NCBI RefSeq assembly: GCF_002895565.1
Contig: NZ_AZRN01000032.1
Span: 1-64,000, forward strand
DNA length: 64,000 nt
Source: Petrotoga mexicana DSM 14811
GTDB lineage: Bacteria > Thermotogota > Thermotogae > Petrotogales > Petrotogaceae
Reading direction: 5' to 3'
The notes below the pieces were generated by a model, which was not told where the DNA came from, did not search any database, and saw only the letters and a list, made by a program, of their open reading frames with translations. Made by a program: the position numbers and the translations under genes. Below, in pieces: positions 14,325 through 61,025 of this stretch; the first letter of the stretch is position 1; each line of letters begins with the position of its first letter.

Positions 14325-14374
14325 TAATCGGCTATAATCGTACTTAATTACCTTTAATTACCCCTAAACGCTAA
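14325..14374 (+). repeat. Decamer array A: five units with exact 10-bp period
   Basis: Units start at 14325, 14335, 14345, 14355 and 14365. They read TAATCGGCTA, TAATCGTACT, TAATTACCTT, TAATTACCCC and TAAACGCTAA. The array lies between the divergent mbx promoter and the promoter of the aldo-keto reductase-like gene. Arrays B (35974) and C (59869) have the same unit, number and spacing. Confidence 0.8.
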
Positions 14375-14483: not shown

Positions 14484-15335
14484 ATGGAGAGAAGAATGTT
14501 GGGTAAAACCCAAGAAGAACTCTCTATAATAGGTTTGGATTTGGAAAAGCTTTTGGTAAGTGAGGATACTTACGAAATTAAAAGGTTTTTAGAAAAGTTT
14601 ATTCTAGGTGGTGTAAACTTTTTTGAAATTTCTCCTACATTCGAACCTAAAGACGTGACGGCCATTTTTCCAATAAATCTGTATAGGGATAAACTTTTTA
14701 TTGCAGGCAGATCTTACTCCAAAAGCAGTGATGAGATACAACAGGACATAAAAGAACTCTTAGCTAAATTCAATCTTCAATATTTAGATTTGATTCAAAT
14801 TATTGTAAATACTCAAGAAGGTATTCATAGAATTCTAGGACCTGAAGGCGCTCTGGAGGGGTTCTTTGCCGCTAAAAATTTGGGCTTAGTAAAGTACATA
14901 GGTTTTTCAACAAACAAAGAAAGAATAGCCTTAAAACTTTTAGAAAGTTACGATTTTGATTCGATTACCTTCCCCTTAGACTGGATGAACTGGTACACTG
15001 GTTATGGAAGAAAAGTAATTTCCAAAGCCAAGGAAAAAGGTACTGGCATAATAAGCAAACAAAGTCTTATAAAAAAGATAACGAAGGTAAATTCAGAAAA
15101 AGGTATATCGGACCTTCTTTATATCCCTTCTGAAAGTTATGAAGAAGTTAAGACAACGATAAGATTTTCTCTTACTAAGCCAATAACCTCTATCTTATGT
15201 TCTAGCCACATTAACCTTTTAGAATGGTTAATACAAGCAGCAGACGAATTCACACCGCTTGATATTCAAGAAGAGAAAAATTTGCGAAAAAGCTGTGAAG
15301 AGCTTGGAAAAGTGTTCAATCCTAAAAACATTTGA
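14484..15335 (+). CDS. Aldo-keto reductase-like protein with degenerate active site
   Basis: The 283-residue protein follows the aldo-keto reductase barrel pattern. It starts RMLGKTQEELSIIGLDLEKL, has the GGVNFFE strand near 42-48, LDLIQIIVN near 101, and GFFAAKNLGLVKYIGFSTN near 126-144. In active family members the second of these reads like FFDTAxxYG and the third like DLYxLH. Here the first reads FFEISPTFE and the His position in the third is Ile, so the catalytic Tyr and His appear to be lost. It may be non-enzymatic or have a changed activity. It is followed directly by psuK (stop codon within the psuK ribosome-binding region). Confidence 0.75.
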   Translation: MERRMLGKTQEELSIIGLDLEKLLVSEDTYEIKRFLEKFILGGVNFFEISPTFEPKDVTAIFPINLYRDKLFIAGRSYSKSSDEIQQDIKELLAKFNLQYLDLIQIIVNTQEGIHRILGPEGALEGFFAAKNLGLVKYIGFSTNKERIALKLLESYDFDSITFPLDWMNWYTGYGRKVISKAKEKGTGIISKQSLIKKITKVNSEKGISDLLYIPSESYEEVKTTIRFSLTKPITSILCSSHINLLEWLIQAADEFTPLDIQEEKNLRKSCEELGKVFNPKNI

Positions 15336-35941: not shown

Positions 35942-35973
35942 GTAAAATTAAGGAAACGAAAGAAAAACTGAGT

Positions 35974-36023
35974 TAATCGACTATAATTCCGTCTAATTTC
36001 TTCTAATCCTCCATAATCAAGTT
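35974..36023 (+). repeat. Decamer array B: five units with exact 10-bp period
   Basis: Units start at 35974, 35984, 35994, 36004 and 36014. They read TAATCGACTA, TAATTCCGTC, TAATTTCTTC, TAATCCTCCA and TAATCAAGTT. The array lies between the nucleoside permease and the LacI-type regulator gene, ending 82 bases before the latter's ATG. Confidence 0.8.
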
Positions 36024-36067
36024 TGCAATTTAAATTATTTAGAGATATACTTGAAACAAGCAGTTTC

Positions 36068-36105: not shown

Positions 36106-37089
36106 ATGAATAGACAAATAACCATAAAAGATATAGCAAAAGAAGCAGGGGTTTCTATATCAACTGTTTCAAGAGTGGTGAACAGTTCCTTACCGGTGAA
36201 AAAAGAAACGAAAGAAAAAGTTTTAAAAGCAATTGAAAAGTTGAATTATTATCCCGATTCTCTTGCCAGGAGTTTAAGAGTTGGATACACCAAGACGATA
36301 GGTATAATCATTCCAAATATTGCCAACCCTTTTTTTGCAACTATAGTAAGAGGGGCAGAAGATTTTTTAAGATCAAAAGGCTTTTCTTTGATGATATGCA
36401 ATTCAGATAACAACATTGTTGAAGAAAAAAAATTATTTAAAACATTAATCGAAAAGAAAGTCGATGGGATTTTGTACTCAGGTATAGGTGACCATGTTGA
36501 AAGTCTCATCAATAAAAATGTAAAAACCGTTTTCATAGACAGAATCATTAAAAGCAACAAATTTTCTTACGTTTGTTCAAACAACTACAACGCAATGTAT
36601 AAATTACTAGAATACCTATACAATTCAAATCACAGAAAATTCATATTTATAAGCGGCCAAAAAGAAATATTCAGCGCGGCTGAAAGATTAAGAGCCTTCC
36701 AAGATTTTGCAAATGAATACAAGATAGATTTTAAAATATATGAGGGAGAGTATACCCATGAATCGGGGCTTTCGGTAGCTAAAAAGATTAAAAATCTTCC
36801 AGACGTTGTGGTATGTGCAAATGATTTATTGGCTTATGGAGTTATAGAACATTTTAAATCGAAGGGCTTGAAAGTGCCGAAAGATGTAAGCGTTACTGGA
36901 TACGATGACATCGCTTTTAGTAAAATGTTCTCTCCACCCTTAACTACTGTGAAACAACCTATTTATGAAATGGGAAAAACGGCCGGAGAAATGATCTTTA
37001 CAATACTTTCAAAAAAAATAGATCACATTCCTGTGAAACAGTTTGAAAACGAGATAATAATTCGAGAAAGTACGAGGAGGAGAAATTAA
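36106..37089 (+). CDS. rbsR: LacI-family transcriptional regulator, probable RbsR
   Basis: This 327-residue repressor has an N-terminal helix-turn-helix (TIKDIAKEAGVSISTVSRVV, about 5-24) and a hinge helix (PDSLARSLR, about 50). The rest is a periplasmic-binding-protein-like effector domain, with IIIPNIANPFFATIVRGAE near 68-86 and the C-terminal PPLTTVKQPIYEMGKTA. It is the first gene of rbsD-A-C-B-K, so ribose is the likely inducer. I chose ATG 36106 (AAGGTGG upstream) over an in-frame ATG at 36076. The predicted operator at 36068 suggests autoregulation. Confidence 0.9.
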   Translation: MNRQITIKDIAKEAGVSISTVSRVVNSSLPVKKETKEKVLKAIEKLNYYPDSLARSLRVGYTKTIGIIIPNIANPFFATIVRGAEDFLRSKGFSLMICNSDNNIVEEKKLFKTLIEKKVDGILYSGIGDHVESLINKNVKTVFIDRIIKSNKFSYVCSNNYNAMYKLLEYLYNSNHRKFIFISGQKEIFSAAERLRAFQDFANEYKIDFKIYEGEYTHESGLSVAKKIKNLPDVVVCANDLLAYGVIEHFKSKGLKVPKDVSVTGYDDIAFSKMFSPPLTTVKQPIYEMGKTAGEMIFTILSKKIDHIPVKQFENEIIIRESTRRRN

Positions 37090-59712: not shown

Positions 59713-59868
59713 CTCAAAATTTCAAACTCCTTTTTTATAATTGATTACTCTCTTTAGCGATGCTAATTGTTTAATTTCTCAAGCTTCTATTTTATCGTCT
59801 ATTTTTCCATCTTTTTGAAATTTTAGCATAAAAAAATAAAAATTAAGAATTTTTAAGTTTTTAAGTCC

Positions 59869-59918
59869 TAATCGTCTCTACTCGACTTTAATCGTCTATA
59901 ATTCCATTTAATCGGATT
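59869..59918 (+). repeat. Decamer array C: five units with exact 10-bp period
   Basis: Units start at 59869, 59879, 59889, 59899 and 59909. They read TAATCGTCTC, TACTCGACTT, TAATCGTCTA, TAATTCCATT and TAATCGGATT. The array lies in the 287-base gap between the divergent fumarase and LacI genes, 22 bases upstream of a TATAAT box. The remainder of this gap is AT-rich; a single TATCGTCTA occurs near 59793. Confidence 0.82.
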
Positions 59919-59940
59919 TTTATTTTAAAAGTATAAGAGT

Positions 59941-59970
59941 TATAATATAATTAGTTAAACGGTTAAGTAA
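59941..59970 (+). promoter_or_regulatory. Promoter -10 and LacI-type operator of the regulator gene
   Basis: TATAAT at 59941-59946 is followed by TTAAACGGTTAAGTAA at 59955-59970. TTAAACGGTTAA is a near-palindrome with a central CG and would cover the transcription start. A near-identical site is at 61042-61057, before the GH94 gene, so the regulator probably binds both. Confidence 0.75.
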
Positions 59971-59999: not shown

Positions 60000-61025
60000 A
60001 TGCCACCAAAGAAAAATAAAAATTCTCGAATAACTATCGAAGATATAGCACAGATCGCACAAGTTTCTAAAGCCACCGTATCTTATGTGATCAATGATAA
60101 ACCCGGTGTGAGTGAGCCGGTTAGAAATAAAATAAAAAATATAATTGAGGAAACTAATTATTTTCCTAATTCTGCAGCAAGGGGTTTAGCAGGTGAAAAA
60201 ACACATTTTGTAGGTTTAGTTATTCCAGATATTTCTGATATGTTCTATGCAAATATAATTAGAGGAGTAGAAAAAACTTTAAATAAAAAAGACTATCTTC
60301 TCAATCTATTTACCACACATGCAAGGCCAGAAAGAGAGCAACAAGTGGTTCGATTGTTGAATAAGAGTATGGTTGACGGATTAATTATAATGGCTTACTT
60401 TATTACTGATAATTTCATAAAGTCTTTGAAAGAAAGGGATATTCCTTTTGTCTTTATCGATTATCCACCAAAGGATGAAGATATTTATTCTGTGATGGTC
60501 GACAACGAAAATGGTGCATTTGAGGCGACAGAATATTTGATAAAACTTGGGCATAAAAAAATAGCGTTTTTAGAAGGTCCACAAGTTGCCTGGGATTCAA
60601 AGGCACGATTCAAAGGTTATTTGAAGGCATTAAAAGCCTATGGAATCAAATTCAACCAAGAATTAGTTGAAAACGGTAATTTTACAAAAGAAGAAGGATA
60701 TACAGCTACAAAAAGGTTGTTAGAAAAAGGAGAAAAATTCACTGCTATCTTTTCTTCGAATGATCAAATGGCGATAGGAGCAATGAGAGCTTTAAAAGAA
60801 AGTGGGTACAAAATTCCAACAGATGTCTCTACTATAGGTTTTGACAACATCGAGGCCAGTTCTATAATAGAACCACCTTTAACAACTGTTTCACAACCCA
60901 TATATGAAATGGGTAAAAAAGCTGTAGATATTATAACAGCTTTGATAAATGGAGAAACAATAGAAGAAAAAAGATATTTGTTAAAAACAAAATTAATCGA
61001 AAGACAATCTTGTACAAGAATTTAA
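60000..61025 (+). CDS. LacI-family transcriptional regulator of the GH94 locus
   Basis: A 341-residue repressor. The helix-turn-helix is TIEDIAQIAQVSKATVSYVI (about 12-31), and the hinge helix is PNSAARGLAG (about 57). The effector domain has VGLVIPDISDMFYANIIRGVE near 74, FIDYPPKDEDI near 160, VAWDSKARFKGY and PPLTTVSQPIYEMGKKAVD near 300. The adjacent phosphorylase and sugar-binding protein suggest a beta-glucoside as effector. GGAGG lies 7 bases before the ATG. The operator overlapping its own promoter implies autoregulation. Confidence 0.92.
   Translation: MPPKKNKNSRITIEDIAQIAQVSKATVSYVINDKPGVSEPVRNKIKNIIEETNYFPNSAARGLAGEKTHFVGLVIPDISDMFYANIIRGVEKTLNKKDYLLNLFTTHARPEREQQVVRLLNKSMVDGLIIMAYFITDNFIKSLKERDIPFVFIDYPPKDEDIYSVMVDNENGAFEATEYLIKLGHKKIAFLEGPQVAWDSKARFKGYLKALKAYGIKFNQELVENGNFTKEEGYTATKRLLEKGEKFTAIFSSNDQMAIGAMRALKESGYKIPTDVSTIGFDNIEASSIIEPPLTTVSQPIYEMGKKAVDIITALINGETIEEKRYLLKTKLIERQSCTRI

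Follow-up and report, generated by a model that had tools for sequence, protein, structure and literature searches.

We report that three decamer arrays in a 64,000-nucleotide stretch of the thermophile Petrotoga mexicana DSM 14811 (contig NZ_AZRN01000032.1; the whole stretch is called the window below), among them the array at 59869–59918, belong to a real and conserved promoter module that is undescribed in the searchable literature. The array is one part of this module of about 120 bases, which is composed of a distal element, five to six direct repeats, and the -35 and -10 boxes of a sigma-70 promoter. The repeats, their register, their phase relative to the -35 box, their conservation and their target genes are directly visible. 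Judging from the sequences, a global regulator probably stands behind the module, and our preferred reading, with a probability of roughly 0.6, is that the array would be the head-to-tail operator of a global activator that works together with local repressors.

Decamer arrays and promoter anatomy

An earlier note on this DNA had described three five-unit arrays on the plus strand, starting at 14325, 35974 and 59869 (arrays A, B and C), and re-reading of the sequence confirmed the exact 10-base register of all three. When both strands of the window were scanned for five TAAT words at this spacing (20 scored positions), arrays A–C were the sole sites scoring at least 19/20. No comparable array appeared in 400 dinucleotide-preserving shuffles of the window, indicating that the arrays are far in excess of expectation and ruling out chance AT-rich sequence as their origin. 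The same scoring at periods of 7–9 and 11–15 bases gave no comparable arrays in the window.

Across the whole 2.13-Mb genome, TAAT N6 TAAT N6 TAAT had 45 exact matches at about 27 places; the window has 490 TAAT words on one strand and 477 on the other, a density that would give about two such matches. With up to three mismatches in five units, 123 overlapping matches were found, which gave 50 separate arrays (17/20 or better) in the fetched genome stretches; the array counts, loci and array positions relative to genes given here refer to these stretches. An unanchored scan placed the -35 box at a single phase (phase 9) in 32 of the 50 arrays, just past the last unit and mostly at offset 49 or 59, for which the binomial P is about 3e-20 for a given phase. 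The -35 and -10 boxes, TTGACA-like and then TATAAT, were almost always separated by a 17-base spacer.

When 35 promoters were aligned on the -35 hexamer, the repeats began at -59, -49, -39, -29, -19 and -9 before it, with the -59 unit weaker than the other five. The earlier note had counted five units, but six are often present. Outside TAAT, the conserved letters were Y and then G at unit positions 5–6, and also C, and a better form of the unit consensus than the one first proposed is TAAT(C/T)G(C)(C/T)T, or TAATYGCYTN. A distal element, GAAAAAYTAAGAAAA, lay at a constant distance of about 71 bases upstream of -35, with G at -71 in 31 of the 35 promoters. Since the TAAT letters were chosen by the search, evidence free of this choice comes from the Y-G-C letters and the distal element, and from phase and conservation. 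Searches against Rfam assigned the arrays to no known RNA family.

The features of the three arrays in the window (each array identified by scoring and shuffles) are as follows.

59837–59852, plus strand: distal element of array C, TAAAAATTAAGAATTT, with G at 59847, 71 bases before -35 (column conservation in 35 promoters)
59869–59918, plus strand: array C, TAATCGTCTC TACTCGACTT TAATCGTCTA TAATTCCATT TAATCGGATT
59918–59923, plus strand: -35-like hexamer TTTTAT of array C, its first base being the final base of the last unit
59941–59946, plus strand: -10 hexamer TATAAT of array C, 17 bases past -35
60000–61025, plus strand: LacI-family regulator after array C (Pfam LacI, 1.1e-16)
35942–35957, plus strand: distal element of array B, GTAAAATTAAGGAAAC, with G at 35952, 71 bases before -35
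35974–36023, plus strand: array B, TAATCGACTA TAATTCCGTC TAATTTCTTC TAATCCTCCA TAATCAAGTT
36023–36028, plus strand: -35 hexamer TTGCAA of array B
36046–36051, plus strand: -10 hexamer TATACT of array B, after a 17-base spacer
36106–37089, plus strand: LacI-family regulator after array B (Pfam LacI, 2.3e-20)
14325–14374, plus strand: array A, TAATCGGCTA TAATCGTACT TAATTACCTT TAATTACCCC TAAACGCTAA
14401–14406, plus strand: likely -10 TATAAT of array A, off the usual register and with a weak -35, unlike B and C
14484–15335, plus strand: gene after array A, 283 amino acids, with no Pfam or NCBIfam match

The distance of 82–110 bases from the end of each array to a start codon holds as described. 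No 6+6 palindrome was found in arrays A–C, and their direct repeats differ from the palindromic operators of LacI-type regulators. Two traits of OmpR/PhoB-type operators are present, namely same-orientation direct repeats 10–11 bases apart and a placement at -35 in constant helical phase.

Conservation across genomes

To count arrays across genomes, a sequence-only model was used at E ≤ 0.01. Six species of the genus had 43–58 matches per genome, a second genus (G011) had 43, and two genomes of a third genus had 25–27, while the remaining genomes searched had 0–14, mostly 1–7. Abundant arrays are thus found in three genera of one family. At orthologous loci, where the earlier note had asked for conservation, arrays were kept within the genus and in the two other genera, and the groES array was present in all three.

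In 68 pairs of orthologous arrays, the identities at unit positions 1 to 10 were.97,.98,.96,.89,.81,.80,.69,.78,.86 and.91, and 64 of the pairs had no indel. These orthologous loci were fetched because the model matched them, which biases the sample towards preserved arrays; it is nevertheless unlikely that locus selection alone produced the strong periodic profile, least of all its drop at positions 5–8. An annotated-genome scan that left out close relatives yielded one useful orthologue.

Among the window arrays, C is kept in G001, G002 and G004, and B in these three and G005; units 1–4 of array A are identical in G005. The TACT unit of array C is a variable unit outside the consensus: two sister species have TAAT in its place, and a third has CAAT. 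In G013, which belongs to another genus, the orthologue of array C is a degenerate array that still has its TTTTAT box and a spacer of 17 bases.

Genes downstream of the arrays

The LacI-type genes reported after arrays B and C were correctly recognized, and the genome-wide targets proved much broader. The first downstream genes include those for sugar-binding (five) and oligopeptide-binding (four) proteins, and for regulators of the LacI (six), ROK (three), DeoR and GntR types. Others encode glycosidases of families GH4 and GH28, an OPT transporter, a glycerol facilitator, a dihydroxyacetone kinase, an aminotransferase, glutamate dehydrogenase, a histidine ammonia-lyase family protein and the glycine cleavage T protein. 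Further products are glutamine synthetase, prephenate dehydratase, a dehydrogenase E1 subunit, ferredoxin, a MurQ-like SIS protein, GroES and H+-pyrophosphatase. Most of the targets serve to import and degrade sugars, peptides and amino acids. Likely local operators also accompany several array promoters, one example being the CIRCE element that is seen by eye at groES.

Many array promoters, chiefly those of amino-acid and peptide genes, have a palindrome, ATGAAATTTTTTTCAT, next to or within them (L068:2116 and 8782, L077:1326, L078:5548, L079:180, L081:5577, L094:2085 and L115); it looks like the operator of a second regulator, for nitrogen or amino acids. An unannotated RNA of about 98 nucleotides starts from an array promoter at L061:4835–4935 (minus strand; G000, contig C6). 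It is nearly identical in G000, G001 and G004 and has a long hairpin, a loop with the anti-Shine-Dalgarno-like CCCUCCCUCCU and a terminator; its folding z-score is -5.0 and it has no Rfam match. At L072:2161–3581, an insertion element, its transposase encoded in two frames, stands directly behind an array promoter and in this genome probably separates that promoter from its gene. The loci L081:504–2390, L081:3098–4984 and L093:504–2390 encode peptide-binding proteins that resemble one another and have the same length, and every one of these genes has an array promoter to itself.

Candidate binders

The most interesting candidate for the array binder is a protein of 1058 amino acids that joins a MalT-like ATPase/TPR part to a SARP-type (OmpR-fold) C-terminal DNA-binding domain; we regard this identification as possible but less likely than not. 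Its residues 22–727 match the NCBIfam MalT model at E 6e-19, below the model's equivalog cut-off. It was found in eight of the nine array-bearing genomes (G000, G001, G002, G003, G005, G007, G011 and G013), and none of the 52 genomes that lack abundant arrays has it. In G011, its gene adjoins a pfkB sugar kinase and is the last in a same-strand run headed by an array promoter. Binding of direct repeats at or near -35 is a known mode of OmpR-fold activators (PMC10936776). A bolder proposal, which appears doubtful, is that this STAND ATPase, with its MalT-like sensor and SARP-type domain, would polymerize head to tail on six-unit arrays at about 50 promoters as a catabolic master switch, an analogue of CRP, in Petrotoga and related genera.

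Several other proteins were considered as binders and rejected. MraZ had no match in 38 genomes, in which seven controls were detected, and a BldC/HTH_17 protein was absent at E ≤ 1e-3 in six of the nine array-bearing genomes (G000, G002, G003, G005, G011 and G013). For PhoB, whose gene adjoins one array, no orthologue was found in array-bearing G013, and DeoR occurs in all genera with a distribution that does not track the arrays. A short SARP-like protein of about 350 amino acids occurs also in genera without arrays and has a broken frame in this genome, where its gene is split into two overlapping frames (L367:284–1317; G000, contig C2); the gene is intact in sister species and carries a stop in G004.

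A very unlikely binder is RR2, a DrrD-like response regulator of the OmpR family (L334:1489–2166, minus strand) in a two-component system limited to the array-bearing genera. It contains a receiver domain as well as an OmpR-type one, its closest solved structure is DrrD (1kgs), and it alone among four OmpR-type regulators has orthologues (82–98%) in exactly the array genera, with at most 45% identity elsewhere (ten genomes). The promoter region that it has in common with a divergent PepSY gene, however, contains no TAATYG array, and a TTTCAT-N5-TTTCAT repeat at 11 bases, conserved as judged by eye, is the likelier RR2 operator. This repeat lies between the two genes (L334:2140–2340) in three genera and is likely the local operator of the RR2 two-component system.

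Alternative explanations of the arrays

The arrays could instead be extended UP-like elements that the alpha subunits of RNA polymerase touch with their C-terminal domains, or that a general nucleoid protein contacts, giving strong promoters whose regulation is left to local repressors. Such a role would fit the fixed helical phase and the fact that many arrays come with strong -35 and -10 boxes, and also the higher AT content seen in T. maritima some 75 bp ahead of -10, which the authors of that study read as UP elements (PMC3636130); a general factor would also explain the arrays of G004, which has no MalT/SARP-like gene. We consider it unlikely, as UP elements are A-tracts, whereas the unit TAATYGCYTN has a conserved Y-G and C (the distal element is A-rich), and six units exceed two alpha domains. 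Moreover, polymerase parts are common to all relatives while arrays are abundant in three genera only, the targets are catabolic, and no array was seen at a ribosomal RNA operon among the loci read. Nor are the arrays predicted to be curved: the earlier suggestion that they would bend DNA found no support in a wedge model, in which they were no more curved than their own shuffles (mean z 0.27; 1.05 with the distal element included). The other suggestion, a row of contacts to one protein, agrees with the fixed register, the periodic conservation and the fixed phase to -35. That this protein is a repressor or silencer seems quite improbable. Near-consensus promoters could need holding down, and the last unit abuts -35, but an array wholly upstream of the core promoter at a constant phase occupies the usual place of an activator, and genes or operators of local repressors are already present at many array promoters.

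Several observations weigh against a dedicated activator or against its most interesting candidate. Many array promoters have near-consensus -35 and -10 boxes, for which an activator is not obviously needed, and array A and its -10 deviate from the usual register. The candidate gene is cleanly deleted in G004, yet 47 model matches remain there and the arrays are constrained, with 1 private change in 280 core columns versus 11 in 420 other columns; the loss may be recent, which is compatible with the short branch. The array-bearing genera may be one clade, so that the co-occurrence is possibly a single event, and repeats in SARP promoters are spaced 11 or 22 bases apart, not 10.

Proposed mechanism and significance

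With a global activator acting at the arrays, each repeat would be the half-site for one subunit of a sequence-specific protein. The subunits would line up head to tail on one face of the DNA, and the last of them would adjoin -35 at sigma region 4. One factor could in this way raise about 50 promoters of genes that import and degrade sugars, peptides, amino acids or glycerol, and the specific signal would come from local repressors (LacI, ROK, DeoR and HrcA). We infer that a dedicated protein binds the arrays, activates the promoters and senses the nutritional state.

In a comparative study of sugar use in Thermotogales, only local regulons and no global regulator were found, and the usual catabolite repression based on the phosphotransferase system is lacking (PMC3750489). 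That about 50 promoters of uptake and catabolic genes share an array, in three genera, is direct evidence that a global layer exists there. Our search of the literature found no account of 10-base arrays. Array DNA offers a ready bait for finding the regulator protein, and the arrays, if read correctly, would stand out among head-to-tail operators for their length and uniformity.

Comparison with known systems

The proposed layout is that of the lac promoter (CRP and LacI), with a global factor upstream and a local repressor downstream. Operators of the OmpR/PhoB family (ompF, pho boxes and PmrA boxes) are tandem direct half-sites in one orientation, spaced by about one helical turn and ending at -35. 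The arrays are likewise tandem half-sites of the same orientation that reach -35; they differ in their half-site, TAATYG, in their extra distal element, and in having five to six units at about 50 promoters, whereas OmpR/PhoB operators usually have two to six half-sites at few promoters. The MalT-activated mal promoters of E. coli have tandem direct sites upstream of -35. MalT is a STAND/TPR activator like the candidate, which resembles it over the sensor part, but it has a LuxR-type DNA-binding domain, a different box and a small regulon.

In P. mobilis, ATTATA(N)18GTCAA was listed as a potential novel motif (PMC5217627); its reverse complement, TTGAC-N18-TATAAT, is the array module's core promoter, and the accessible part of that account does not describe the 10-base arrays. 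In SARP promoters such as afsS, bound by AfsR, direct repeats are read by an OmpR-fold domain that adjoins sigma region 4, and AfsR, like the candidate, is a STAND ATPase with TPRs (PMC10936776). The repeats in these promoters are 11 or 22 bases apart, compared to 10 in the arrays (PMC10936776), and their 3ʹ repeat is 8 bases from -10, whereas the arrays end at -35, with the hexamer and a 17-base spacer before -10. Head-to-tail direct repeats are typical of OmpR-fold regulators and of a small number of other proteins, BldC among them; BldC sites are like the arrays in that a head-to-tail oligomer binds a variable number of AT-rich direct repeats (PMC5859096).
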